Made by a program: the position numbers and the translations under genes | Notes under the pieces: generated by a model | The model's database searches: none | Told to the model about the DNA's origin: nothing | The model's input: only the letters and a program-made list of their open reading frames with translations | Part shown: positions 3,313 to 16,714 of the stretch, in pieces | Numbering within the stretch: the stretch's first letter is position 1 | How the letters are laid out: every line of letters starts with the position of its first letter | Assembly (NCBI RefSeq): GCF_014656375.1 | Contig: NZ_BNCH01000001.1 | Location: 682,001-746,000 of the forward strand | Length of the DNA: 64,000 nt | From: Aliiroseovarius zhejiangensis | GTDB taxonomy: Bacteria > Pseudomonadota > Alphaproteobacteria > Rhodobacterales > Rhodobacteraceae | Direction: 5' to 3'

Positions 3313-5238
3313 TCAGGGGGCGTTCAGGGCGGCCTTGGTGGCGTCGCTTGATCCGTCGCTCGCCGCAAGATCAATGGGAAACCAGTCTGACACGGCACCG
3401 GCCGACACGCCGTCCACCACCTGCGCACGCACTCGCCAAAGCGCCGCGCCTGCGGGAACGGGGTGACGCAGGACCGAGCTTTCGATCCCTTCTTTTGCCG
3501 TAACCACCCTGCCCTGATGATCGGCAAACTCGATTGCATACAGGGCCGGGTCCGCCCCGGTGCCGCTGGTCCAGACAAGCACTGCTGTCTGACCGTCCAC
3601 CAGGAACGACAGCAGAGGCACAGGCGCCGCTGGCGCCCCCTGCGCGCGGTCCGGCGGCGGCGTGGTCAACCGATCCGCAGCGGCTTCGACCTGACCCGCG
3701 GCCTGTTCATACCACCTGCGCGCCAGCACATGATCGACCGGCACCCCTTCGCCCAACTCGTAAATCTGTCCCAGAAAATACGCCGCACGCGCGTGACCCG
3801 AACTGGCTGCCAGAGCAAAGGCCACCACCGCCGCCTGCGGGTTCTTGTCAGCCACGGTCAGTGCAAGCCGATACCAATCGTCGACTTCTTCCGGTGGTGC
3901 GCCGAAGCTGTCCAGCACAGCCAGGGCTGCCGATGTGTCGGCAAGGCGCGGCGGCGGAGGTGCGGCGGCCACCGCCTTCGGCAAGGCAGGTTCATCGCCG
4001 CTTCCCTTGGTTGTATCTGCCGCGACATCCTCTTGCGTTCCGGCGACCCTCTCGGTCCCGGGCGCAGGCTCCCCCCCCATCTTTCCCGCAAGCATCGCCG
4101 TATCGGTTGCGCCACCTGAATCGCGCGTGTCTCGGGCCGGTCCGATGACGCCATAGGCCACCAGCGCAAGGCCGGCCACCCCGGCAAGACCGGCAGCCAG
4201 CCTTGGGCGGGACCGTTTCCCGCGCTTGGTGGCGGGGTGCGCGGCGGGCGAAGGCTTGGGATCAGGTGCCGCGACCGGATCCTCATCCGGATTTTTCACC
4301 GACGCAGATGCAGGCGGTGCAGCGGGGGCAACCGTGCTATCGGGCATTTGCACCTTCCGGTTGCTCTTGAAACTTGGCGGCGGCAGGTCCGGCAGGTCCC
4401 CGCCGTCGCCGGTCGCCACTGGTGCCTGAACATCCAGCTTCAGACCCAGGGCTTTCGTGGTCGGCAGTTTGCACCGCTCGACCATCGGGGTCTTGATCTG
4501 GGTCTGTCCCAGCGACCGGGCCTCATTCAGCAACATCTGGCAAAGCAGGTTGATCGCTTGCGGGTGTCCTTGCGTGCGGTCGTGGACCGCCTTGAGCGCC
4601 TCATCCTGGAAGCCCACATCATTGACGCCTGCGACCGTCAGCCGATGCCGGACATAGCCCGCCGTATCCTTGTCCGCCATCGCATCCAGGTTGAAGGACG
4701 GCCCCAGCAACGCGGCCGAGGTCTGGTCAAGCCGCGTCAGCAGATCGGGCAGACCCACAAGAACAATCTTGAACAACGCATTCTCGGGCCCGTCATTCAG
4801 CCGTGCGATATCGAATAACGCAAAAAGATGCGCGTCTTTCAGGTTATGCGCGTCTTCGACGATGACGGTTGGCAGGTCGATGTCCTGCTTCGCGGCCTCA
4901 AGGCTTTGTTCCAGAATACGACGGTGCAGATCCTTTTCCCCCGGCCCCGGATCAGCGCCGAACGCTTCGAGGATTGCGCGACAGGGGTCGACCTTGATCC
5001 GGGGACCGTACGGGCAGATGCCAAGCAGTCGGGCGGATTGTGCGTCCGACATCACCTTGCGAACCACGGTCGATTTTCCCGCCCCCTCGGCGCCGGTAAA
5101 CACCGTCAAAAGGATGCCGCTGTTGATCGCAAAGGCCAGACGGTCGACCGCCAGCGCGTGCACCGCGCTCCAATAGTCATACTCGGGTGAGGTGCTTTGA
5201 AACGCATCGACAGTCAGGACGGGATCAGGGTCAGACAT
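3313..5238 (-). CDS. ExeA-like AAA ATPase with TM segment and Sel1-like periplasmic region
   Basis: The 641-residue protein has an N-terminal ExeA/GspA-type AAA domain: Walker A GAEGAGKST at residues 49-57, Walker B VIVEDAH at 125-131, and GHPQAINLLC near 224-233. A Pro/Ala/Asp-rich linker (about 280-345) leads to one transmembrane segment (about 346-367). The presumed periplasmic part has a Sel1/TPR-like region (about 465-525, with YFLGQIYELGEGV) and a beta-rich C-terminus. ExeA works with ExeB to place the type II secretin through peptidoglycan. Here there is no type II secretion gene, and the usual peptidoglycan-binding domain is replaced by Sel1 and a beta region. It is the last gene of the leftward LuxR/HEPN-like operon. 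A role in envelope assembly of the neighbouring secretion system is inferred. Confidence 0.8.
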   Translation of the reverse strand: MSDPDPVLTVDAFQSTSPEYDYWSAVHALAVDRLAFAINSGILLTVFTGAEGAGKSTVVRKVMSDAQSARLLGICPYGPRIKVDPCRAILEAFGADPGPGEKDLHRRILEQSLEAAKQDIDLPTVIVEDAHNLKDAHLFALFDIARLNDGPENALFKIVLVGLPDLLTRLDQTSAALLGPSFNLDAMADKDTAGYVRHRLTVAGVNDVGFQDEALKAVHDRTQGHPQAINLLCQMLLNEARSLGQTQIKTPMVERCKLPTTKALGLKLDVQAPVATGDGGDLPDLPPPSFKSNRKVQMPDSTVAPAAPPASASVKNPDEDPVAAPDPKPSPAAHPATKRGKRSRPRLAAGLAGVAGLALVAYGVIGPARDTRDSGGATDTAMLAGKMGGEPAPGTERVAGTQEDVAADTTKGSGDEPALPKAVAAAPPPPRLADTSAALAVLDSFGAPPEEVDDWYRLALTVADKNPQAAVVAFALAASSGHARAAYFLGQIYELGEGVPVDHVLARRWYEQAAGQVEAAADRLTTPPPDRAQGAPAAPVPLLSFLVDGQTAVLVWTSGTGADPALYAIEFADHQGRVVTAKEGIESSVLRHPVPAGAALWRVRAQVVDGVSAGAVSDWFPIDLAASDGSSDATKAALNAP

Positions 5239-5286: not shown

Positions 5287-5808
5287 TCAGGCGGGGTACC
5301 CGTGGTTCTGGATCAGCATCCACACATCAGAATTCAACGCTTTGAGGTCATTCAGCGACTGTTCGATGTCATCAATGGTCGCCCCATCCAAAGCCGACTT
5401 TTGCCCGACCTTGATCTGGTTCTTGCGGTCGGCCACCCGCATCCGGATGGTCGAAATATCGCCGCTTTGGGAGTTAAATGAATAAATGCAATGATTGTAC
5501 TTGTTGCGCAGGCCGGACAGCAGCTTGATCCGGCGGGTGATTTCCAGCACCGCCTCTCGTTCCGTCTGTGACACGCGTTCAAGTTTCGAAAGCCGTTCGA
5601 CAAGGTCGATCCGGGCGCGCGTGGTGTTGAGCGTCAGAAAGATCACCACCGCGGTCTCTTTATCCGTATGCGACAGCCCTGCGATCAGGTGGATCAACAG
5701 GCTTTCGGTGTTTGTCCAACTGTAATTCAAACGGCCAAGCAGCAGCAGGAACCGGTCAAAATCCCCGCCGGGTCTGTCCTGTGGGTCTGGGTGATCAACG
5801 GCGGTCAT
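5287..5808 (-). CDS. Small helical protein with HEPN-like R-x4-H motif
   Basis: The protein has 173 residues and is largely helical by composition. The sequence RNKYNH at residues 101-106 fits the R-x4-H signature of HEPN domains and follows a long helix (TRRIKLLSGL), as in that fold. It starts 3 bases after the LuxR-type gene ends and 48 bases before the ExeA-like gene, so the three are almost certainly cotranscribed. HEPN proteins are often RNases or nucleotide-binding toxins, but no nucleotidyltransferase antitoxin lies next to it. I do not recognise a closer family. The motif is seen; RNase activity is inference and may be absent. Confidence 0.6.
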   Translation of the reverse strand: MTAVDHPDPQDRPGGDFDRFLLLLGRLNYSWTNTESLLIHLIAGLSHTDKETAVVIFLTLNTTRARIDLVERLSKLERVSQTEREAVLEITRRIKLLSGLRNKYNHCIYSFNSQSGDISTIRMRVADRKNQIKVGQKSALDGATIDDIEQSLNDLKALNSDVWMLIQNHGYPA

Positions 5809-5811
5809 GGA

Positions 5812-6603
5812 TTACCTTCCCTGCAGTCTGTCCAATGTTTGGCCGTGCGACAGGAACCAGTTCGTGGCGCTGACTCTGTTATGCACCTTGAGCTTGCCGA
5901 AGATGTGATGAACATGCAGCTTCACCGTATGTTCGGACAGGCCCAACTGTTCGGCGATGGTCTTGTTCGCCATTCCGGTGGCCAGCAGACCCAGCACCTC
6001 TGCCTCGCGCACCGTCAGGTTTGGCAAGGCCGGCGGCGGAGGGGTCTTCTCTGCCGTTTCATCCGCCTGACCCGTCACCTGTGAAGCCCCGGGTTCAGCC
6101 CCGGCAGAGGTCGGGTTTTGACGGGTCAGCAATTCGGCGGGGACGAACGCCTCGCCCAGAAGCAGAAGCCTGAGCGCGGCGAACCAGGCGTCCAGAGACG
6201 ATTTCATCGGCAAGAACCGCAGAGTGTGTTCGTCTGATGAACCCGCCAGTTGTTGGCGCAACACGCGCCCCGTCTGCGCCGAGGAATAGGCAAGCACCTT
6301 GCCGGCACCGCTGTACACCGGGTCCAGTGCGGGCCGGGTCCGCAGATAGGTTTCCATCGAAGGTTCGTCGAAGATGATCAGGTCCGCGGCCAGCTTGCTG
6401 ACATCATCCAGCGCGTCCAGATCTGAAACGCTGCGAAGGCGCATCGCAGTAACGTCCTTGAATTCATATTCAAGCGTTCTGAGCAACCGGTCGGAGAAAA
6501 CCATACTGTTTCCCAGAAAAATCAGGACGGTATGATCGGGTTGTGTCAATGACTTCGGGGCCTGGGCAATCGGCTCTCTCTGCTTATCTTGCATCTGCAA
6601 CAC
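5812..6603 (-). CDS. LuxR-type regulator with pseudo-receiver domain (CsgD-like architecture)
   Basis: The start is taken as GTG at 6603 because GGAGG at 6611-6615 lies 7 bases upstream; an ATG at 6594 is the alternative. The 263-residue product has an N-terminal receiver-like fold (HTVLIFLG, ADLIIFDEPS, KVLAYSSAQ) with poorly conserved acidic-pocket residues, a Pro/Ala linker, and a C-terminal LuxR helix-turn-helix (LTVREAEVLGLL, HTVKLHVHHIFGKL). An atypical receiver plus LuxR helix-turn-helix is the architecture of CsgD and VpsT, which control biofilm matrix genes. It heads the leftward operon with the HEPN-like and ExeA-like genes and faces the Gly-rich protein gene across a 769-base region. 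Control of that cluster is inferred. Confidence 0.85.
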   Translation of the reverse strand: MLQMQDKQREPIAQAPKSLTQPDHTVLIFLGNSMVFSDRLLRTLEYEFKDVTAMRLRSVSDLDALDDVSKLAADLIIFDEPSMETYLRTRPALDPVYSGAGKVLAYSSAQTGRVLRQQLAGSSDEHTLRFLPMKSSLDAWFAALRLLLLGEAFVPAELLTRQNPTSAGAEPGASQVTGQADETAEKTPPPPALPNLTVREAEVLGLLATGMANKTIAEQLGLSEHTVKLHVHHIFGKLKVHNRVSATNWFLSHGQTLDRLQGR

Positions 6604-7372
6604 AATACATCCTCCAATACTTCGTCCGTCGAGGAGCACATAGGCCTGCCAGTGTGGACTGGCTGACCGGCACCGGTGACGTCGCGTGATTTCCTGACAG
6701 TTGCTCCTGTCAAAAAGAAATATCTCTAAACACTTCAGTCTAAAATCGTAATTATATTCCCATGACTATAACACAGTTGGCCGCGTTGAACAAATTTTCG
6801 CCATATTTCCCGTAAACCCGGTCGAAAACTAATCAATTCGTACTAGGGCCGCCACGCGCAACATGTGCAACTCGCCTTTGGCGTGTAAATCAAGGGGAGT
6901 CGATCTAGTTAGAATCACGCAAAAGGTCAGCATCACTCGATCCAAAGTTGATTCTGAACCGATCAGCGCCGCGTTCTTGAACAAAAAAATGCCGCATTTC
7001 AAAACCCTGCACAGCTAAACCCTTTGTCCGGCTGTTTTTCGGGGCAACTCCAATACAGGCTAAGCGTGCGTCTGCATTTTCAGGCGCCGTAGTGTGAATT
7101 GGTTCAGCAAGTTTATTGAAACAGCCAGGTCGGCAGCCCGCCTTTTCGGGCAAGCAACATCAGGCACCGATCCATATTTTCGGATCAAACACTGGTTTCG
7201 ACCGGCACAGCATAAAGGGGGTACGCGCATTCAGCTTCACGCGGCTGATCCTGTTTTGCCTCGGCAATCCGCTTCACCCGCATCTCACAACATCAAACCT
7301 CAACCATGCCCGCAGATTGGCCACTTTGGAAAGACTGGTGGCGTCCATGGGCATCAGTAAAGGATTTAAGTC
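6604..7372. other. Long divergent intergenic region
   Basis: These 769 bases separate the LuxR-type gene from the Gly-rich protein gene and hold no credible reading frame. The first third is AT-rich (about 6714-6830), unlike the surrounding DNA, and contains the inverted repeat at 6695-6712. The region probably carries the promoters of both transcripts and a long 5' leader for the Gly-rich gene. The ribosome binding site of that gene is AAGGA at 7360-7364. Confidence 0.6.
6695..6712. promoter_or_regulatory. Inverted repeat TGACAG-N6-CTGTCA
   Basis: Two perfect 6-base arms with a 6-base spacer lie about 90 bases upstream of the LuxR-type start codon, at the edge of the AT-rich stretch. The repeat is not followed by a T-run in either direction that would suit a terminator, so an operator is more likely. 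The regulator is unknown; autoregulation by the adjacent LuxR-type protein is possible. Confidence 0.45.
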
Positions 7373-10015
7373 ATGTCAAAAGACAGAGGACATCACACCG
7401 CCAACCAGTTCGCCATCGGCGAAGTGCAGGTTGACGAAGCGAATTTCGACGTCGATGCAGATATTGATGTCGGCTATGCCGATGTTGATCTTGACGCCCA
7501 GCAGCAGCAACAGCAGCAGCAGGTCGACACGTCGGATGTAAACGACAACGCCAACAGTCAGGGCCAGGATCAAGGTCAAGGCCAGGATCAGGGTCAGGGT
7601 CAGGACCAGAACCAACAAGCAAGTTCCGACCAAAGCCAGACCAATGGCGGAGATGACAGCAACGACAACTCCAATTCGGTCAATATCGACTTTGGTGGCG
7701 GTGAGTGGATCCCGCGTGACGACGATGTCGTGGACATCGACGTCAAGGACGGCACCGTTGAAAATGTCGTGACCGCTGGGGGCGACATCGCTCTGGATCC
7801 CGGCGACGACATCGGTGACATCATGACCAACGTCAGATTTGGCGCGGGCAATGATACCGGCGTTGTGAACGTGCAGGAGGCTTACCTGTCCGACGATGAC
7901 CACCTAGGCGCAGCCTCGGTGGCCAACAATGGCGACTTCACCCAAAACGGCAATGCCAACGGTGGCAGCGCCTCGGCTGGTGACGGTATCGCAAATGACA
8001 CCTACACCGGTGACGGTGGTTCGGGTGCGAATGCGGATGGCGGCCAAGCCAATGGTGGCGAAGCCATCGGTGGATATGCCGATGCAACCGGCGGCACCAG
8101 CGGTGATGGTGGCGACAGCGACGCGACCGGCGGCGATGCTGGCGACAGCGGCGAAGCAAGCGCACTGGGCCTGGGCCTTGGCCTTGGCATCAGCGGCAAT
8201 TCTGGTCAGACCAATGGTGGCGACAGCGGTGACGCGGATGCCAACAGCGATGCGACCAGCGATGTCAGCAGCAATAACAACACCCAGGGGTTTGGCGGTA
8301 ACAGCGGCGACTCCTATGCCGAAAGCGACGCCAATGATGGCTCGATCAGCAGCGATGCCAACGGCAACGCAGTTGGTGGCTATGGCACCGGCGGTGATGG
8401 CGGTGACGGCGATGGCGGCGACGGCGGCGACGGCGGTAACGGTACCGGCGGTGACGGCGATGGCGGCGACGGCGGCGACGGCGGCAACGCCCATGGTGGC
8501 GACGCAACCGGCGGCATTGGTGGTGCTGGCGGAGACGGCACAGGTGGCGCTTCGACCACTGGCAATGGCGGCGACGGCGGTGATGGCACCGGCGGCGACG
8601 GCGGCGGCGGTGATGGCGACGGCGGCGACGGTGGCGACGGTGGCAATGGCACCGGCGGCGATGCGGTCGGCGGTTATGGCACCGGCGGCATTGGCGGCGA
8701 CGGTGGTGATGGCGCTGGCGGCGACGGTGGCAATGGCCCCGGCGGCGACGGCAACGCAAACGCCAACACCAGCAACTCGGGCTTCAGCGACAATGACGCT
8801 ACGACCGACAACGATGCCTCCAGCGACAATGATGCAACCGGAAACGGCGGCGACGCCGGGGCAGCATCTGGGGCCGCAGCCGGCGCAGCAGCCGGGCTTG
8901 GACTGCTGAATCTTGCAGGTGCAGGCGCCATGGCTGGCGACCCGACGGCAACGGCCGGCAATGGCCCAGCCGATGCGGGTGGTGCGTCAGACGCAGGAGG
9001 CAACGCCGATGCGGCCGGTGACGGCAGCGGTGATGGCGATGCTGATGCCAGCGGTGACGGCGGCAAAGGCACCGGAGGCGCCGGAGCCGGCGGTGACGGA
9101 GCCATGGGTGCCCAAGGCACCGGAGGCACCGGAGCCGGTGCAACCGGCGGCCAAGGTCCGGGTGGTGCAGGCGCAACCGGTGACGGTGGCGACGGTGCAG
9201 CCGGTGACGGCGGCCAGGGTCCGGGCGGAGCCGGTGCGGCTGCAAACGGCGCTGACGGCGGCCAAGGCCCCGGCGGTGACGGAGCCATCGGTATGGGTGG
9301 CGTCGGCGGCCAAGGCCCCGGTGGGGCTGGTGCAGTCGGTGCAGCCGGTGACGGTGGTCAAGGCCCGGGTGGCGATGGTGCCATGGGCGATGGTGGCGAC
9401 GGCGCCATGGGTGACGGTGGCATGGGCGGTGACGCCGATGGGTCCGCCGACGCCAAGAATGACGTCGACGGCACCGCAAGCTCGACCGCAGATACCGGGG
9501 ACGGCGGCCTGGCCGATGTCTTCTCGGAATCGGCCACTGACGGTTCAGCCGACAGCATGGCAGATGCCATCTCGGGCTACGGCGGTGCGGCGGACACCAA
9601 CCAGACCTCGTCCGCCAGTGCCGATGGCCAGTCCGGCGGCACCAACACCGCAGCCAGCGGTGCCGGTGGCATGGGTGGTACGGCCAACTCGACCGGCGGC
9701 TACAGCGGTGACGCCATGGGCGGCAGCTCGAACGGCGGCATGGCAGATGCCAGCGGCGTGACCGGCGGCATGGGTGGCACGGCCACCAATGGCGCAAGCG
9801 GCATGGCCGATGGCGGCAAATGGGGTTCAGGCAATGGTGACGACGGTTATGTCACCGGCGAATCCTATGCCTCGGCCGCAGCCGTGGTGGACACCGCCGC
9901 GTTCAATCAGAGCATCGTGATGGGTGCCAACGTGCTGGGCAACACGGTCGACATGACCGTTGTTGGCGGCTCGATGAGCTCGACCTATGTCGGTGACGAT
10001 TCGAACGACGCCTAA
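7373..10015 (+). CDS. Giant Gly/Asp/Ala/Asn-rich low-complexity protein, probable type I secretion substrate
   Basis: The 880-residue protein is preceded by AAGGA at 7360-7364. It has no Sec signal peptide. The N-terminus is acidic and Val/Asp-rich, then has eight Gln in a row and a QGQDQG repeat (about residues 43-85). A conventional beta-rich stretch follows (about 105-180). Residues about 185-760 are Gly/Asp/Asn/Ala repeats: GGDGGDG (about 338-462) and five GGQGPGG units (from 592). Two short hydrophobic islands lie near 262-275 and 496-523. The C-terminus is ordered again (AAFNQSIVMGANVLGNTV, then VVGGSM). Lys and Arg are almost absent, so it must be very acidic. True RTX nonapeptides with an aliphatic position are not present. 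With a type I exporter downstream it is most likely an exported matrix, filament or coat protein (inference). Confidence 0.85.
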   Translation: MSKDRGHHTANQFAIGEVQVDEANFDVDADIDVGYADVDLDAQQQQQQQQVDTSDVNDNANSQGQDQGQGQDQGQGQDQNQQASSDQSQTNGGDDSNDNSNSVNIDFGGGEWIPRDDDVVDIDVKDGTVENVVTAGGDIALDPGDDIGDIMTNVRFGAGNDTGVVNVQEAYLSDDDHLGAASVANNGDFTQNGNANGGSASAGDGIANDTYTGDGGSGANADGGQANGGEAIGGYADATGGTSGDGGDSDATGGDAGDSGEASALGLGLGLGISGNSGQTNGGDSGDADANSDATSDVSSNNNTQGFGGNSGDSYAESDANDGSISSDANGNAVGGYGTGGDGGDGDGGDGGDGGNGTGGDGDGGDGGDGGNAHGGDATGGIGGAGGDGTGGASTTGNGGDGGDGTGGDGGGGDGDGGDGGDGGNGTGGDAVGGYGTGGIGGDGGDGAGGDGGNGPGGDGNANANTSNSGFSDNDATTDNDASSDNDATGNGGDAGAASGAAAGAAAGLGLLNLAGAGAMAGDPTATAGNGPADAGGASDAGGNADAAGDGSGDGDADASGDGGKGTGGAGAGGDGAMGAQGTGGTGAGATGGQGPGGAGATGDGGDGAAGDGGQGPGGAGAAANGADGGQGPGGDGAIGMGGVGGQGPGGAGAVGAAGDGGQGPGGDGAMGDGGDGAMGDGGMGGDADGSADAKNDVDGTASSTADTGDGGLADVFSESATDGSADSMADAISGYGGAADTNQTSSASADGQSGGTNTAASGAGGMGGTANSTGGYSGDAMGGSSNGGMADASGVTGGMGGTATNGASGMADGGKWGSGNGDDGYVTGESYASAAAVVDTAAFNQSIVMGANVLGNTVDMTVVGGSMSSTYVGDDSNDA
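8386..8757 (+). repeat. Coding tandem Gly-Gly-Asp repeat
   Basis: Nearly uninterrupted GGC/GGT-GAC/GAT-GGC codons encode GGDGGDG-type peptide repeats inside the 880-residue protein. The DNA is a low-complexity, strand-skewed tract prone to replication slippage and assembly error, and its length may vary between strains. Confidence 0.85.
9146..9432 (+). repeat. Coding repeat of GGQGPGG(A/D)GA units
   Basis: Five copies of the peptide GGQGPGG, each followed by AGA or DGA and an 8-20 residue Gly/Ala/Asp spacer, occur from residue 592 onward. This pattern differs from the Gly-Gly-Asp tract upstream, so the protein has at least two repeat blocks of separate origin. It recalls silk-like and PGRS-like sequences in composition only. 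Confidence 0.8.
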
Positions 10016-10024
10016 ACAATCAAC

Positions 10025-10051
10025 GTCCGGGGCCGCTTGTCGGCCCCGGAC
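10025..10051 (+). terminator. Strong intercistronic hairpin without T-run
   Basis: A perfect 11-bp stem (GTCCGGGGCCG / CGGCCCCGGAC) with a 5-base loop begins 10 bases after the stop of the Gly-rich gene. No T-run follows. It could partly terminate transcription or protect the upstream mRNA end, so that the repetitive protein is made in excess over the downstream genes. Confidence 0.6.
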
Positions 10052-10110
10052 CCGTTCAGTGCCAGGTTCGTTTGTTTGACAACAGTATTCAGCAAGGAGT
10101 TGACGCAGCC

Positions 10111-12147
10111 ATGAGCCTTGACCAGACAACCGAGTCCATCGCGCACTTCATTGGTTTGTTCCACCTCGCTGAAAACGAAGCACGGCTCAGAACGGATTAC
10201 TACGAATTCAAACTGAAACAGAAACTGGCCGAGGCGGGTGAATTTGAGTTCAAGCCCGTCCTCAACAAAGCCCCTTTTGAACTGGGTAAGTTCAACCCCC
10301 ACTCACAGTACACGCCAATCCCCGAACCGCCTGCTCAAGTCGCAGGAAACGGGTCACTCGCCCTTCCGGCGCTGACCGTGCCGCTTGATGGCACGGGCGC
10401 CGTCGGATCGGATGGCCCCGTCCCGATCGACACCGGGGCTGCGGTGGATTTCATCATGGGCAGCGTCACGATCCTGCCTTTCATCCCCCTGCCCTCATCC
10501 GTGATCACGGTGACGATCCAGACCATTCACCTGGATGACAACGATGTGATTGGTGATATCGATGCGGCAGGGTTCCAATCGCTCGACGGTCTGTATGCCG
10601 CGCTTGAGGCCGCGATCGAACTGGCCGAAACACTCCAGCCCTGGACCACTGACGGGCTGATTGCCGAGCTTCTGGACGATGCCGGAAATGTTCTGCCATT
10701 CCTCGACATGATCAACGCGGTCGAAGACCCCGAAATCGAGGGGCTGAACGTCACGATCATCGAAGACGAGGACACGGAAGGTGTGTATGTCAACGGCGAA
10801 CTGGTCGACGAGGTGCCGGAACTGGACGACCATCTGCCCGCCTTTATCAAAGCAAAGCGCGACAAGCTGGACGACGACGAGGACGACGACCAATTGGCCG
10901 GTGTTGCCAAGGATCAGGTCATCCTGGACACCGGAAACGACGCTTGGCCAACCCCTGTCAATTCCGAACACAATGTCAGCGCCGGCGCGAACGAGGCACA
11001 TAACCATGCCGCAATCCACACAAGCTGGATCGACGCGGGCGTCATCGCCGTGGCTGGCGATGTGATCAACCTGAACGCGGTGTCTCAGGTCAACGTGCTT
11101 TATGACACGGACCAGTATCACGACACTCTCCAGAACGACCCAAGCGCGCCGTCACAGGCCCAGAACATCGCGTCAACCCAGATCGACAACCGCGACGTTC
11201 CTGACGGGTTCGAAATCGAAGCATCGGCGTCAACCGACCTGCCGACAAACTGGCATGTGGTGCGGCTGGAAGGCGATGTGACTGTCACCAACTATCTGCA
11301 ACAGCACACGTTCGTGATGGATTCCGACCGGCTGGACCTGACATTTTCGGCCAACTCCACCTCGATCGTGACGGGCGAGAACCTGACCTACAACCTTGGT
11401 GCGGCCGCCGATTTCGGCCAGGGCTATGACCTGATTTTCGTTGGTGGCACCATGCTGTCGCTGAACGTGGTCAATCAGACCAACGTCCTGTTGGACAACG
11501 ACCAGTTCTATGGCTCGGGAATGGATGACGCCGCAGTGTCGGGGCACGACAACCTGTTGCGCAACGAGGCCAGCATCCACCAGGAAGGTATCGACACACA
11601 GGTCGACATGCTGGACGATTTCAAGACCGCGCTGGACGAACTGCAGCAAGGGGTCGACGACCTGTCGGCTGCCGTGGCCCAAAGCGCCTATTTCGAGGGG
11701 CTGGACCAGCTCAGGGTTCTTTATATCGACGGTGATCTGACCCAGATGAACGTCGTCGATCAGGTCAACTATCTGGGCGATATGGATCAGGTGCATATGG
11801 CACTGGATTCGGTCCAGTCCGCTCTGGACGACATTCCGGTGGCCATTACCACCGGGTCCAACCTGTTGACCAACACCGCGTCAATCACCCAGACGGGCTT
11901 TGACTCGGATGTGATGGCGGGTGGCGATTATTATAACGACGCCCTCCTGTACCAGGCCGATCTGATCGACACCGACGCCAACCCGTCGGGCGTCGGCATG
12001 ACCGGCCTGACAAACGAAGCCGTGGCCTTTCTGGCCGATGACATGATTGCCGATGCGGTGAATGACTCGCTCGAAGCCGCAGGCATTGCGAACGACGCCC
12101 ATACCGGCGGCACGGCGTTGGACGTTATGCAGACAATGACAACTTAA
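10111..12147 (+). CDS. Acidic secreted-type protein with three NVVxQxN repeats
   Basis: The start is taken as ATG at 10111, with AAGGAG at 10094-10099; an in-frame TTG at 10072 lacks a good ribosome site. The 678-residue protein has no Sec signal or membrane segment. Its N-terminus is helical (DYYEFKLKQKLAE), followed by a Pro/Thr/Gly linker and an acidic region (DDDEDDD near 260). The C-terminal half contains three copies of a motif: LNAVSQVNVLYDTDQ at about 320, LNVVNQTNVLLDNDQ at about 451 and MNVVDQVNYLGDMDQ at about 546. Copies 2 and 3 are each followed by an N-x-L-x-N-x-ASI segment. Copy 2 shares VGG(S/T)M with the C-terminus of the Gly-rich protein. It lies 24 bases before the secretion ATPase gene, so it is a likely substrate or substrate partner. 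I recognise no named family. Confidence 0.82.
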   Translation: MSLDQTTESIAHFIGLFHLAENEARLRTDYYEFKLKQKLAEAGEFEFKPVLNKAPFELGKFNPHSQYTPIPEPPAQVAGNGSLALPALTVPLDGTGAVGSDGPVPIDTGAAVDFIMGSVTILPFIPLPSSVITVTIQTIHLDDNDVIGDIDAAGFQSLDGLYAALEAAIELAETLQPWTTDGLIAELLDDAGNVLPFLDMINAVEDPEIEGLNVTIIEDEDTEGVYVNGELVDEVPELDDHLPAFIKAKRDKLDDDEDDDQLAGVAKDQVILDTGNDAWPTPVNSEHNVSAGANEAHNHAAIHTSWIDAGVIAVAGDVINLNAVSQVNVLYDTDQYHDTLQNDPSAPSQAQNIASTQIDNRDVPDGFEIEASASTDLPTNWHVVRLEGDVTVTNYLQQHTFVMDSDRLDLTFSANSTSIVTGENLTYNLGAAADFGQGYDLIFVGGTMLSLNVVNQTNVLLDNDQFYGSGMDDAAVSGHDNLLRNEASIHQEGIDTQVDMLDDFKTALDELQQGVDDLSAAVAQSAYFEGLDQLRVLYIDGDLTQMNVVDQVNYLGDMDQVHMALDSVQSALDDIPVAITTGSNLLTNTASITQTGFDSDVMAGGDYYNDALLYQADLIDTDANPSGVGMTGLTNEAVAFLADDMIADAVNDSLEAAGIANDAHTGGTALDVMQTMTT

Positions 12148-12171
12148 TCCATTTTCAAAGCGAGTGATTAC

Positions 12172-14142
12172 ATGACCAATGCGGCACAGCAGGTCCGCGA
12201 CCCGGAAGCACCTTCAAAACCACGGTTGGTGTTGAAAACGGTCGACCGGGTCGAAACCGAGACGCAGCCGACATCCAAGATGGACGGCGCGGGGATCGGT
12301 GTAACCATCGACCAGAAGGCGAACCAGCCGATTTCAAACAAGACCAACCCTCCCCCCACCCGTTCCGGCGGTGGTGGTGGCGACGGTGGCGGCGGAGGCG
12401 CCAATTTCCACAAGCGGATCGGACCGCAGGACTTTTCGCAAAGCCTGAAGGAAGGCATGGCCGCCGTGCGCGGCAACCTTCTGTTCGTGATGGTGATGAC
12501 CTGCGCCACCAACATCCTGATCCTGTCGATCCCGATCTATCTGTTCCAGATTTCCGACCGGGTGCTGACCAGCCGGTCCACCGACACGCTGATCATGCTG
12601 ACCATCGTCATCGCGGGCGCGGTGATCCTTCAGGCCGTCTTTGATGCGGTCCGGCGGTTCGTGCTGATGCGCACGGCGGTCGAGGTCGCGGCGAAGCTCG
12701 GCACCCCGATCCTGAGCGCCGCGGCGGCGGCATCATTGAACGGCACCGGGCGCGAATATCAGACGCTGGGCGATCTTCAGCAACTGCGCGGCTTCATCGT
12801 GTCGGGCACGCTGATCTCGTTCCTTGACGTACCCTTTGCGCCCCTGTTCATCCTGGCGATTTTCCTTGTGCACCCGCAGCTTGGCATGATCGTGATCGTG
12901 ACCTCTCTGCTGTTGCTGGTGATCGCGCTGATCAACCAGAAAGCCACCGCAAAACCCTTTGCCGAAGCCAACCTGGCGCAGTCCAAGGCAAACATGCACC
13001 TGGATTCGATGTCCCGAAACAGCCAGATCATCAACGCGTTGGCCATGATCCCCGAGGCCGTGTCGATCTGGGGCAAGGACACCGCCGCATCACTGACCGC
13101 GCAGGTGCGCGCGCAGGACCGCAACATCATCTCAGCCGCGTTTTCGCGTGGCGTGCGCCTGTTGACGCAGATCGGAATGCTGGGCTGGGGCGCGTACCTG
13201 GCCATTCAGGGCGAGATCACGGGCGGCATGGTCATCGCGGCGTCGATCATCGCGGGTCGCGCGCTCGCCCCGATTGAGGGGTCGATCGAGGGGTGGAATG
13301 CTTTCATCCTGACCCGCGGCGCCTATGGCCGTATCCGCACGCTTCTGCAAAACTCTAAACTGCAATTCGAAAAACTGCGCCTGCCCCGACCCGAAGGCCG
13401 GCTGGATGTGGAACGTCTGCTGTTCGTGCCCCCCGGCACCAAGGATGTGGTGCTGAACGGTCTCAGTTTCCAACTAAACCCCGGCGAAAGCCTGGCGATC
13501 ATCGGCAATTCCGGCGCGGGCAAGACGACGCTGGGCAAGATGCTGGTTGGCTCGATCCTGCCCACATCGGGCAATGTGCGGCTGGACCTGATGGACCTGC
13601 GCAACTGGGAACCGCGCCAGTTCGGTGAAAGCATCGGCTATCTGCCGCAGGACGTGCAACTGTTCCCGGGTTCGATCAAGGACAATATCGGCCGGATGCG
13701 CGCCGATGCGACGGACGAACAGATCTATGAGGCCGCCAAACTGGCCGATGTGCATGAGATGATCGCCAACCTGCCGCAAGGCTATGAAACGATGGTGGCC
13801 GCCGATGGCTCGCCGCTGTCGGGCGGGCAGAAACAGCGTATCGCGCTGGCGCGCGCGTTCTTCGGCAACCCCCGCATGGTAGTGCTGGACGAGCCGAACT
13901 CGAACCTCGATGCGGCGGGCGACAAGGCGCTGGCGCGCGCCATAGAACATGCGCGCCGCAGCAAGATCACCGTGGTCGTGATCACCCAGAAACCCGCCCT
14001 TCTGGACGTGGTCGACAAGATCATGCTGATCCGCGACGGCTCGATCGCGCTGTTTGGTACGCGCGACACCGTGTTGCAGCGGATCCGCGACGACCAGCGC
14101 GCGCGCCAACAGCCACCCAAACCACTGGGGGAGCAAACCTGA
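12172..14142 (+). CDS. Type I secretion ABC transporter, PrtD/HlyB class
   Basis: The 656-residue inner-membrane protein powers export through a trans-envelope channel. The N-terminus is a disordered extension with a Gly tract (residues 66-76) and no C39 peptidase domain, so leader peptides are not cleaved. Transmembrane helices begin near residue 100 (NLLFVMVMTCATNILILSI). The nucleotide-binding domain has Walker A GNSGAGKT at 445-452, LSGGQKQR from 549 and Walker B MVVLDEP from 569, all intact. It is followed after one base by the HlyD-type gene and preceded by the two putative substrates. The outer-membrane TolC partner is not in the window. The Gly-rich extension before the membrane domain is unusual and may contact the Gly-rich substrate (inference). 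Confidence 0.93.
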   Translation: MTNAAQQVRDPEAPSKPRLVLKTVDRVETETQPTSKMDGAGIGVTIDQKANQPISNKTNPPPTRSGGGGGDGGGGGANFHKRIGPQDFSQSLKEGMAAVRGNLLFVMVMTCATNILILSIPIYLFQISDRVLTSRSTDTLIMLTIVIAGAVILQAVFDAVRRFVLMRTAVEVAAKLGTPILSAAAAASLNGTGREYQTLGDLQQLRGFIVSGTLISFLDVPFAPLFILAIFLVHPQLGMIVIVTSLLLLVIALINQKATAKPFAEANLAQSKANMHLDSMSRNSQIINALAMIPEAVSIWGKDTAASLTAQVRAQDRNIISAAFSRGVRLLTQIGMLGWGAYLAIQGEITGGMVIAASIIAGRALAPIEGSIEGWNAFILTRGAYGRIRTLLQNSKLQFEKLRLPRPEGRLDVERLLFVPPGTKDVVLNGLSFQLNPGESLAIIGNSGAGKTTLGKMLVGSILPTSGNVRLDLMDLRNWEPRQFGESIGYLPQDVQLFPGSIKDNIGRMRADATDEQIYEAAKLADVHEMIANLPQGYETMVAADGSPLSGGQKQRIALARAFFGNPRMVVLDEPNSNLDAAGDKALARAIEHARRSKITVVVITQKPALLDVVDKIMLIRDGSIALFGTRDTVLQRIRDDQRARQQPPKPLGEQT

Positions 14143-14143
14143 C

Positions 14144-15496
14144 ATGACCCAGTCGAACCTTCCCGCCAACGCCGTCGTCATCCACGAATGGCATGACAAG
14201 GTGCCGCGCTCGATCAAGAAACACGTGATGTTCGGACTGCTTCTGCTGGTCGTGACCTTTGGCGGATTCGGCGCATGGGCGTTTCGCGCACCGCTTGCCG
14301 CTGCGGTCATCGCGCAAGGCAGTTTCGTGGCCACCGGGCGCAACAAGATCGTGCAGCACCTTGAAGGTGGAATCATCCATGAAATCCTGGTCAGAGAAGG
14401 CGACGAGGTCTCGGCGGGCGACGTTCTGCTGACCCTTGATGAAACCGCCGCGCTGGCAAACCGGCGCGAATTGCACATTCGCAAAGCGCGGCTTGAGGCG
14501 ACCGTGACCCGTCTTGCCGCCGAGTACCGCGAGCTGGAACAGCTCGATTTTCCGCAACAGCTTTTGGACGAGGCCAGTCAGGATCAGGAAATCGCGTCGA
14601 TCCTTGATGGTCAGCGGCTGTCATTCAGCACCGCCCGCGCTTCGCTGAACAATGATGTCTCGCTATTGGAACGCAACATCAACGCGCTCGAAATCCGCAA
14701 GACCGGGTATCAGATCCAGCATGATTCCCACGTCAAGATGGTCGAACTGCTGGATCAGGAATACGCCGACAAAAGCAAATTGCTGAGCGGTGGTCTGATC
14801 CGCCAGACCGAGGTGAACGCGCTGCTGCGCGCCAAAATCGAAGCACAGGGCCAGATCGGGCGCCTGCAAGCCGAGGTGAACGAAAACGAGCAGTTGATGC
14901 TGAAACACCAGACCCAGATCGAAAAGGTCCGCAGCCTGTATCGCGAAAATGCGTTGGATGAATTGCAGGTCATCCAGGCCGAACTTGAAAGCGTGCGTGA
15001 AAAATACCGCAAGGCGGAAAACGTCCTGACCCGGTCCGAAGTCACGGCCCCGGTCAGCGGCACGATCCTGCGCCTGCACTATTTCACCCCCGGTGGGGTG
15101 ATCGAAACCGGCAAGCCCATCGCGGAAATCCTGCCCTCCAGCGCGCCCCTGATCGTCGAGACCTTGATCCTGCGCACCGATATCGACAGCGTGCATCGTG
15201 GGCAGAACGCCGTTGTGCGGCTGACGGGGCTGAACGCGCGTACGACGCCGGTGCTGGACGGCACGGTCGATTATGTCTCGGCGGATGCGATTGCCGACAA
15301 CGCAAACGGTGTCACGCGCGAAGTGTTCGTGGCACGCGTAACCCTGTCGCCCGAAGAACTGGCCCGTGTCAAAGGCTTCGTCCCGACGCCGGGTATGCCG
15401 GCCGAGGTGATGATCCAGACGGCCGAACGGACCTTTGCGCAGTACATTGCCCGGCCGCTGGCCGACAGCATGGCGCGCGCGTTCCGGGAACAATAG
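14144..15496 (+). CDS. HlyD/PrtE-family membrane fusion protein
   Basis: The start is ATG at 14144, one base after the ATPase stop, with GGGGGAG at 14127-14133. The 450-residue adaptor has one transmembrane segment (about residues 25-45), a biotinyl-lipoyl-like half (GRNKIVQHLEGGIIHEILV, then GDEVSAGDVLL), a long coiled-coil hairpin (about 110-290), the returning lipoyl half (VTAPVSGTILRL) and the beta-barrel (IVETLILRTDID). It bridges the inner-membrane ATPase and TolC. All parts expected of the family are present and the length is typical, so the exporter looks complete apart from the outer-membrane channel. Confidence 0.93.
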   Translation: MTQSNLPANAVVIHEWHDKVPRSIKKHVMFGLLLLVVTFGGFGAWAFRAPLAAAVIAQGSFVATGRNKIVQHLEGGIIHEILVREGDEVSAGDVLLTLDETAALANRRELHIRKARLEATVTRLAAEYRELEQLDFPQQLLDEASQDQEIASILDGQRLSFSTARASLNNDVSLLERNINALEIRKTGYQIQHDSHVKMVELLDQEYADKSKLLSGGLIRQTEVNALLRAKIEAQGQIGRLQAEVNENEQLMLKHQTQIEKVRSLYRENALDELQVIQAELESVREKYRKAENVLTRSEVTAPVSGTILRLHYFTPGGVIETGKPIAEILPSSAPLIVETLILRTDIDSVHRGQNAVVRLTGLNARTTPVLDGTVDYVSADAIADNANGVTREVFVARVTLSPEELARVKGFVPTPGMPAEVMIQTAERTFAQYIARPLADSMARAFREQ

Positions 15497-15651
15497 GGAA
15501 CCGGGAAGAACGCGCTTTCCGAAAGTGCGATGCCAGCGTGATATCCGGCGGAGGCATGCAGTCGGTTGTGGGCCGCGATCCCCGCCCCATGGAAATTCAG
15601 CCATGCAACCCCCATCTTAGACAGGACTGACTTTTCCAAGGGGGTTCAGAT

Positions 15652-16101
15652 TTGAAGACTTATGAAAAATCCGCTGAAGCCATCGCCAAACTGTCGCCTG
15701 AACAATATCGCGTGACGCAGGAGAACGGCACCGAGCGTCCGGGTAGTGGTGAATACCTCGGCAACAAGGAGCCCGGTATCTACGTCGACATCGTTTCGGG
15801 CGAGCCGTTGTTTGCGTCCTCGGACAAGTATGAAAGTGGCTGCGGCTGGCCCAGCTTCACCAAGCCGATCGAGCCTGCCCATATCACCGAGCTTCAGGAT
15901 GCCTCGCTCGGGATGATGCGGACCGAGGTTCGGTCGTCCCATGGCGACAGCCATCTTGGGCACGTGTTCCCTGACGGGCCAAAGGACCGGGGCGGGCTGC
16001 GCTATTGCATCAACTCGGCCTCGCTCAGATTCGTGCATCGCGACGATATGGAGGCGGAAGGCTACGGGGACTATCTCAATCAGGTGGAGGATATCGGATG
16101 A
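15652..16101 (+). CDS. msrB: Peptide-methionine (R)-S-oxide reductase
   Basis: TTG start with AAGGGGG at 15638-15644; no in-frame ATG is available nearby. The 149-residue protein reduces the R epimer of methionine sulfoxide in proteins and free methionine. It carries [18 protein letters not shown] and the catalytic [11 protein letters not shown]. The second CxxC pair that binds zinc in many MsrB proteins (GNCDAHL in E. coli) is replaced by SSHGDSHL, so this is a zinc-free type. It overlaps msrA by the sequence ATGA, so both repair enzymes are made together. No regulator is adjacent. Confidence 0.95.
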
Positions 16102-16607
16102 CACAAGAGCGTGCAGTTCTGGCCGGGGGGTGTTTTTGGGGGATGCAGGATCTGATCCGCAAGCTGCCCGGCGTGATCTCGACCCGGGTGGGATATACGG
16201 GCGGCGATGTGCCCAATGCCACCTATCGCAATCATGGCACCCATGCCGAGGGGATCGAGATCATTTTCGACCCTGATAAGATCACCTATCGCCGCTTGCT
16301 GGAGTTCTTCTTCCAGATCCATGACCCGACCACACCGATGCGGCAGGGCAATGACATCGGGCCGTCCTATCGTTCCGCGATTTATTACGTGGATGATGCA
16401 CAGAAGGCCGAAGCCCTGAACACCATCGCGGATGTCGAGGCATCCGGCCTGTGGCCCGGCAAGGTCGTCACTGAAGTTGAACCCGTGGGCGATTTCTGGG
16501 AAGCGGAGCCTGAGCATCAGGATTATCTTGAGCGCGTTCCCAACGGATACACCTGCCACTTCGTGCGCCCCGACTGGGTTCTGCCCAAACGCGACGCCGC
16601 CGAATGA
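16098..16607 (+). CDS. msrA: Peptide-methionine (S)-S-oxide reductase
   Basis: The start is ATG at 16098, overlapping the msrB stop by four bases with GGAGG just upstream. The 169-residue enzyme reduces the S epimer of methionine sulfoxide. The catalytic motif [10 protein letters not shown] is at residues 10-19; family residues GYTGG and [11 protein letters not shown] follow. The distal motif is [10 protein letters not shown], near the end. The length is at the short end of the MsrA range, without an N-terminal signal, so it is cytoplasmic. With msrB it forms a complete methionine repair pair. Confidence 0.95.
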
Positions 16608-16622
16608 CAGGTTAAACCAGGA

Positions 16623-16648
16623 CGCGGGCTGGTCATACCCGGCCCGCG
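16623..16648 (+). terminator. GC-rich hairpin after msrA
   Basis: Inverted arms CGCGGGC and GCCCGCG with a 12-base loop follow the msrA stop. There is no T-run, so termination here would be weak or Rho-assisted. It separates msrBA from modABC. Confidence 0.35.
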
Positions 16649-16714
16649 CGCCCGATCTGTCGCAGCAAAAGACCTTGCCGCCCCCGTCTGCATGTCGTTA
16701 TCTGCTCGGCGATC

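Follow-up and report, generated by a model that had tools for sequence, protein, structure and literature searches.

Curli and Fap, two bacterial functional-amyloid systems, use special outer membrane pores. The curli repeat comprises 22 residues, and at csgD-csgB the regulator faces a long divergent intergenic region. FapC is reported to carry imperfect repeats that each form one cross-β layer and are held by conserved Asn and Gln (PMC12392863), and curli-type loci that include csgG and csgF are reported from Pseudovibrio (PMC5959193). For type I secretion systems, an attachment role has been predicted for several PrsDE substrates (PMC2275737, PMC8146911), and R. leguminosarum toaDE and tobDE are described as type I systems with no known substrate encoded close by (PMC2275737). 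The latter may be related systems. By titles and abstract openings among the matches listed, a literature search that left most subscription journals outside its scope gave no account of the gene pair described below, or of a type I-exported amyloid in these bacteria.

We analyzed a locus within a 64,000-nucleotide stretch of Aliiroseovarius zhejiangensis DNA (the window). It encodes a 678-residue repeat protein (protein B), a Gly-rich partner (GlyR) and the ABC transporter and adaptor of a type I exporter (Table 1). The repeats, their conservation, their strand register in a structural model, the elements shared by the two proteins and the gene order were computed. We favor, with a probability of roughly 0.48, a reading in which B and GlyR assemble outside the cell as a matrix or adhesin system of two proteins, served by a type I exporter encoded in the same locus.

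Table 1. Features of the locus, with positions in the window and the basis of each assignment.
Feature	Position	Strand	Basis
Conserved 173 aa protein, no assigned family	5287..5808	-	Profile matches in 40/40 loci; Pfam none over cut-off
Divergent LuxR-type regulator	5812..6639	-	PF00196 E 2.2e-20; adjoins locus in 39/40 loci
Long divergent intergenic region, 733 bp, LuxR gene to GlyR	6640..7372	.	Length compared across 39 loci
GlyR, Gly-rich partner, 880 aa	7373..10015	+	Composition; aligned with 11 relatives
b-type element of GlyR, QEAYLSDDD, residues 168-176	7874..7900	+	Alignment, profile comparison, motif scan
Conserved C-terminal 64 residues of GlyR, a-type element QSIVMGANVLGN (9908-9943) and VGGSM	9821..10012	+	39-sequence alignment; B a-half profile ranking
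Protein B, 678 aa repeat protein, putative type I secretion substrate	10111..12147	+	ORF, ATG start, ribosome-binding site
N-terminal helix of B, residues 5-41, conserved	10123..10233	+	AlphaFold2 helix, pLDDT about 62-81; G15 invariant; R25, Y30, F33 at least 90%
Copy R0, half repeat (b strand; Q137, D143, D145)	10501..10551	+	AlphaFold2 strand 131-147; profile matches to R3 and GlyR N-domain
Coil 1, residues 287-336 (N298, Q326)	10969..11118	+	AlphaFold2 fragment model; R1-R3 profile probability 98.5%
Coil 2, residues 349-410 (N352, Q398), low-confidence insert	11155..11340	+	Core alignment, AlphaFold2 fragment model; R2-R4 97.6%
Coil 3, residues 417-467 (N428, VGGTM, Q456)	11359..11511	+	Core alignment, AlphaFold2 fragment model, profile comparison
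Coil 4, residues 474-563 (N485, helical insert, Q551)	11530..11799	+	Core alignment, AlphaFold2 fragment model; R3-R4 96.8%
Coil 5, residues 577-620 (N588, Q615)	11839..11970	+	Core alignment, AlphaFold2 fragment model; R1-R5 95.9%
C-terminal octapeptide of B, possible type I secretion signal	12121..12144	+	Asp at -8 in 40/40 B proteins
Type I secretion ABC transporter, PrtD type	12172..14142	+	TIGR01842 706.6 bits, cut-off 510.15
Type I secretion adaptor, HlyD type	14144..15496	+	TIGR01843 371.4 bits, cut-off 208.65

Repeat anatomy and predicted fold of protein B

The B gene is preceded by a ribosome-binding site rated as good (AAGGAG, 10094-10099). A sequence-only reading of this DNA had noticed three motif copies in B, at about residues 320, 451 and 546. 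These are real: matches to the strict motif N.[VIL].Q.N.L.D.DQ lie at residues 322, 452 and 547, and none arose in 10,000 shuffles of B, but three is an undercount. A looser motif, Q...[LVF].D.D, has five copies (residues 137, 326, 398, 456, and 551; mean 0.10 in shuffles, five or more in 0/10,000), and a sixth (Q615) is visible from the alignment of relatives. Only five of the 250 window ORFs of at least 100 codons hold the loose motif, namely B with its five copies and the Gly-rich neighbor and three other frames with one each. Alignments of 40 and 48 B proteins revealed a two-part repeat unit, in which an a-half centered on N-x-A-x-I, usually preceded by G-x-N-x3, is followed by a b-half, a strand of about 20 residues with the pattern V-x-V-x-G-D-x5-N-x3-Q-x-N-x-L-x-D-x-D. 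In total, B contains five two-part repeats and one N-terminal b-half (R0, Q137); of the a-half motif, coil 2 retains just the Asn (N352). The NLLxNxASI segment reported to follow copies 2 and 3 is present (DNLLRNEASI at 480, SNLLTNTASI at 583), but it forms the first half of the next repeat and not the tail of the previous one. The VGG(S/T)M sequence said to be common to both proteins was confirmed, as VGGTM at residue 444 of B and VGGSM in GlyR.

Relatives keep the copies in the 40- as well as the 48-sequence alignment, their absence having been named beforehand as a possible refutation. The core alignment comprised 48 of 50 proteins, as L085 and L086 were dropped for large inserts; the plasmid loci L087, L088, L089, and L119-L121 and the split L112 were also left out. 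Residues Q326, Q398, Q456, Q551, and Q615, as well as N298, N428, N485, and N588, are invariant in 48/48 core sequences, and N352 is conserved in at least 90%. Profile-profile comparison of the repeats gave probabilities of 98.5% (R1-R3), 97.6% (R2-R4), 96.8% (R3-R4), 95.9% (R1-R5), 95.6% (R1-R4), 94.0% (R2-R3), 93.8% (R3-R5), 90.9% (R1-R2), 89.1% (R0-R3), and 62.4% (R0-R1). For each of these ten pairs, eight among coils 1-5 and two with R0, the observed score was reached by 0/100 column shuffles. Outside this shuffle control, R0-R2 and R0-R4 gave 86 and 78.5%, and single comparisons of R5 with R0, R2, and R4 gave no match. A chance origin of the repeats was rejected on the basis of the motif shuffles and the column-shuffle controls.

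AlphaFold2 modeling of whole B (40 sequences) yielded a pLDDT of 72.3 and a pTM of 0.68, with confident strands in residues 284-622 and pLDDT below 50 at 43-126, 257-284, 623-678, and some shorter stretches. Modeling of residues 284-622 (48 sequences) raised these values to 88.5 and 0.83, the five models ranging from 86.5 to 88.5 in pLDDT. In five of five coils, the conserved Asn takes offset +3 of an 11-residue strand and the invariant Gln takes offset +8 of a long strand; the 11-residue strands begin at 295, 349, 425, 482, and 585, the long ones at 318, 390, 448, 543, and 607. The copies thus share one predicted strand pattern and do not adopt unrelated folds, the outcome for which structure prediction had been proposed as a check. 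A parallel in-register solenoid would be expected to place equivalent residues at one strand position in all coils. On this model, the core of B is best read as an Asn/Gln-laddered β-solenoid, with stacking and direction taken from strand positions, not coordinates. Of the β-solenoid or amyloid-like module suggested earlier, the solenoid would fit the model; neither a solved solenoid nor an amyloid gave a significant structural match.

Foldseek searches of the PDB with the whole-B and core models gave no match at E ≤ 0.001, with TM-scores of 0.16 or less. Below significance, the FapC amyloid ranked first for whole B (E 0.17), and for the core curli CsgA (8c50, E 0.097) ranked first and FapC third and sixth (E 0.74), at rmsd values of 22-33 Å; other rows for the core were SufB/SufD and further β-rich chains. 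VIA-align placed FapC first for whole B (Z 3.3; Z ≥ 2 in 4/49 chains), and for the core, among 32 chains, FapC alone reached Z ≥ 2 (Z 3.4 over 82 residues at an rmsd of 6.0 Å). In a viral structure library nothing reached E ≤ 0.001; the third and fourth rows there were "curlin associated" phage proteins. We regard the FapC, CsgA and curlin-associated rows as suggestive company and not as a match; a family absent from the Foldseek and VIA-align lists is not thereby excluded. At the sequence level, Pfam and NCBIfam had no family over cut-off for B or GlyR, and a PDB profile search with B returned five chains at E ≤ 10 (best E 0.52), which were judged to be chance and did not include FapC. Membership of the curlin family was not supported: Curlin_rpt scored 13.8 bits in B against a Pfam gathering score of 20.7 and reached E ≤ 0.1 in 2/40 members. 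CsgG had no match in the own genome, in a search whose control found CsgG in 4/14 known genomes. Plain curli was rejected on these two grounds.

B has only five predicted coils, of about 44-90 residues, with a loop in coil 2, a helical insert in coil 4 and uneven Q-to-Q spacings of 72, 58, 95, and 64 residues, unlike a uniform fiber subunit. It is conceivable, if somewhat unlikely, that B is a single-chain β-solenoid adhesin or polysaccharide-binding protein that never polymerizes, and GlyR a separate Gly-rich surface protein with which it has merely export and regulation in common. The glycosyltransferase genes flanking one Sulfitobacter copy and the GlyR element found without B nearby on two Sinorhizobium fredii plasmids fit such a role, which nevertheless leaves unexplained why B repeat elements recur in the conserved parts of GlyR.

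The Gly-rich partner and its B-related elements

GlyR consists of 30% Gly and 15% Asp, with 0.9% Lys + Arg and no Cys. The length of GlyR-type ORFs (n = 40) ranges from 343 to 1632 residues; the middle is variable, and the conserved parts are the N-terminal domain and the last 64 residues, which show a mean column identity of 71% over 39 sequences (an alignment that omits L078 and the second gene of L066). For three divergent and one very long GlyR, Pfam had no family over cut-off. In the distant relatives L109, L111, L116, L117, and L078, GlyR is shorter (264-386 aa) and has a prion-like make-up, with Gln-rich and then Asn-rich stretches followed by FNxDQxxxLV. A tandem pair of GlyR-type genes lies upstream of B in L066, L078, and L110.

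Both ends of GlyR appear to carry B-related elements. The relation is clear at the N-terminus and weak at the C-terminus, where it is judged from ranking. The N-terminal domain carries Q-x3-L-x-D-x-D; the loose motif occurs somewhere in 27 of 41 GlyR-type ORFs, in at least one of them outside this domain. Compared with R0 of B, the N-domain reached a profile probability of 94.3% over 19 columns (0/100 shuffles), and GlyR N-domains ranked first and second with a b-half profile of B, making up 10 of the 16 non-B rows listed. The C-terminal element (QSIVMGANVLGN...VVGGSM) reached 18% with R3 (0/100 shuffles), 9% with R5 (1/100), and 2.6% with R1 (4/100). When a profile of the B a-half only was run against 5,770 mechanical ORFs, 58 were matched as B and the ten best non-B rows were GlyR C-termini; 26 of the 32 non-B rows listed were labeled GlyR, at a best single E of 0.046. 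The idea of a module joining the two proteins, formerly based on VGG(S/T)M, gains support from these further shared elements, so that the link between B and GlyR is better founded than that sequence alone implied, and the two S. fredii plasmids with a GlyR element and no B nearby count against it.

The shared Asn/Gln/Asp spacing could also have arisen by convergence, if any long stacked strand selects for it. This we consider improbable. In its favor are the low pairwise probability of the GlyR C-terminus and the Asn/Gln array that FapC is reported to have of its own (PMC12392863). Convergence does not sit well, however, with the match of R0 to the GlyR N-domain or with the B and GlyR genes being neighbors in 39/40 loci. 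Type I secretion signals are usually C-terminal, as is one of the GlyR elements, and the last eight residues of B start with Asp in 40/40 proteins (D.MQ.MLA in eight, DVMQTMTT in four). Instead of being assembly strands, the elements common to both proteins could on this view serve docking or secretion, with the conserved GlyR C-terminus and the B tail as type I signals for the exporter. We hold this to be quite improbable; the related elements of B lie inside the confidently predicted sheet core, away from the C-terminus, and the B tail differs from that of GlyR.

Gene order, putative export and distribution

Six genes of the locus are conserved: those for the two putative substrates, the ABC and HlyD proteins, the LuxR-type regulator and the 173 aa protein. 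Of the 40 loci compared, one from the window and 39 from relatives, 39 show the order 173 aa-protein gene and LuxR gene, facing GlyR and B; ABC and HlyD follow in 37 of these, and in the other two (L022 and L068) B lies at the contig end. The fortieth locus, L078, has B, ABC, HlyD and weaker GlyR-type genes with no LuxR match. B is thus linked to ABC and HlyD genes in 38/40 loci, and the remaining two stop at a contig end. In a set of 18 loci that are more distant or lie on plasmids, with L078 among them, ABC and HlyD occur throughout and GlyR-type ORFs in 16, the exceptions being L088, with a small unlabeled ORF that has a similar element, and L118, with no detectable GlyR. A TolC-type protein is encoded elsewhere in the own genome.

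RTX nonapeptides (GGxGxDxUx) were found in 0/40 B proteins and as a single match each in 6/40 GlyR, and an RTX repeat protein was rejected as the identity of B. With these nonapeptides absent from B, the export reading rests on gene linkage and the C-terminal peptide, and the earlier description of B as "secreted-type" holds solely through the adjoining type I exporter genes. A type I-exported pair is the best reading of B and GlyR.

Between mechanical ORF starts, the LuxR-GlyR intergenic region has a median length of 684 bp (range 320-820; 39 loci with both genes). Its G + C content is below that of the surrounding locus in each of the 39, which hints at dense regulation. In a single-sequence PDB search, nearly every row matched the DNA-binding end of the regulator and just 1yio_A extended back to residue 110; a CsgD/VpsT-like signal domain is unsupported by these rows. 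The gene for the 173 aa protein accompanies the LuxR gene, but in L088, L115, and L135-L137 its place is downstream of HlyD or overlapping it. An Rfam search of window positions 6000-16700 gave two rows, both below gathering scores. At 3313-5238 on the minus strand, the window encodes an AAA ATPase with a Sel1 repeat, which resembles the XrtA/PEP-CTERM-associated ATPase TIGR03015 (E 5.9e-23, below cut-off).

B was detected in 12/148 near genomes (own included), 34/394 genomes of the family, 6/75 of one other family, 2/289 across the class and 8/398 across the phylum, all eight from the same class; each count includes the own or center genome, and the genome sets overlap. Within the genus, B is present in 5/20 other genomes, in two of them as a version just 38% identical, which suggests exchange of the locus between lineages. 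A contig scan with B as the sole query gave one locus, that of Aliiroseovarius sp. Z3. The GlyR element was found in 9/101 genomes, all nine of which also have B.

Among 72,556 plasmid records searched by tblastn, B occurs in 32 and the GlyR C-terminus in 28, with 26 in common; hosts of B include Ensifer, Sulfitobacter, Sinorhizobium, Paracoccus, and Shinella. Four of the six B-only records were examined (L088, L135, L136, and L137; two Sinorhizobium records were left out), and in L135, L136, and L137 profiles identified a diverged GlyR-type gene in place, that of L136 being annotated as "fibrinogen-binding protein." The GlyR-only records L133 and L134 (S. fredii) have no B, ABC or HlyD within 8 kb, and these copies may be either remnants or GlyR working alone. 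In L121 (Rhizobium plasmid) the locus copy is broken over several frames, and in L112 B is split over two. Annotated B copies that were inspected are called "hypothetical protein" or, in Sulfitobacter faviae, "type I secretion protein ATPase." The latter label is on B in three of five Sulfitobacter records (L087, 7998-10106, and Sulfitobacter sp. W074 plasmids), where B has no ATPase match, and is probably a misannotation.

A candidate matrix system and its relation to known systems

In the two-protein system that we favor, the divergent LuxR-type regulator would switch the gene set on, and B and GlyR would leave the cell in unfolded form by way of the PrtD/HlyD pair and a TolC-type channel whose gene lies outside the locus. 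Once outside, B would fold into a five-coil β-solenoid in which stacked Asn and Gln side chains hold the coils together. GlyR would serve as an acidic Gly-rich spacer, of very different length between species, with a b-type element near its N-terminus and an a-type element at its C-terminus; these could extend the sheets of B, or those of other GlyR chains, at their open edges, tethering the spacer to B and building a fiber or a mesh. Secretion, parallel stacking, B-GlyR contact, fiber formation, an adhesive role and regulation of the B/GlyR set are the parts of this scheme that we infer. The conserved and register-matched repeats, the shared elements, the co-occurrence (39/40 loci; 9/9 genomes) and the TolC-type protein count for a two-protein system, and the lack of a significant structure match, the weak similarity of the GlyR C-terminus, the loose pairing on plasmids and L118 without GlyR count against it.

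A bolder proposal, which we hold to be unlikely, is that this is a further bacterial functional-amyloid system beside curli and Fap, so far in Alphaproteobacteria only and type I-exported. Here B would be the Asn/Gln-laddered nucleator or fiber core, and GlyR a length-variable Gly-rich linker, both ends of which are detached halves of the B repeat that plug into the growing sheet. There is a real chance that B and GlyR, as exported matrix repeat proteins, form a separate amyloid system. Export of a laddered solenoid pair by a type I system would differ from the pore-based solutions of curli and Fap, and a set of hypothetical proteins encoded on roseobacter, Paracoccus and rhizobial chromosomes and plasmids would gain a role. 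The shared half-repeats are a concrete prediction of how two matrix proteins may join.

Like FapC/FapB of Pseudomonas (PDB 9u4u, 9nqd), the locus comprises two repeat proteins, with imperfect Asn/Gln repeats, and the fold comparison of FapC with the B core (Z 3.4, 82 aligned, rmsd 6.0 Å) stands beside a Foldseek E of 0.74, below significance; in contrast to Fap, the B locus has type I exporter genes. With curli CsgA/CsgB it shares Gln/Asn-spaced strand repeats and a LuxR-type regulator facing a long divergent intergenic region, whereas B coils of about 44-90 residues differ from the 22-residue curli repeat, and the curli-type loci of Pseudovibrio have another gene set. The exporter belongs to the PrtD/HlyD subfamilies, as for the RTX adhesins and Rap proteins secreted via PrsDE/PrtDE. 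B differs from these in having neither RTX nonapeptides nor a Pfam match over cut-off, and here the exporter genes adjoin two putative substrates.
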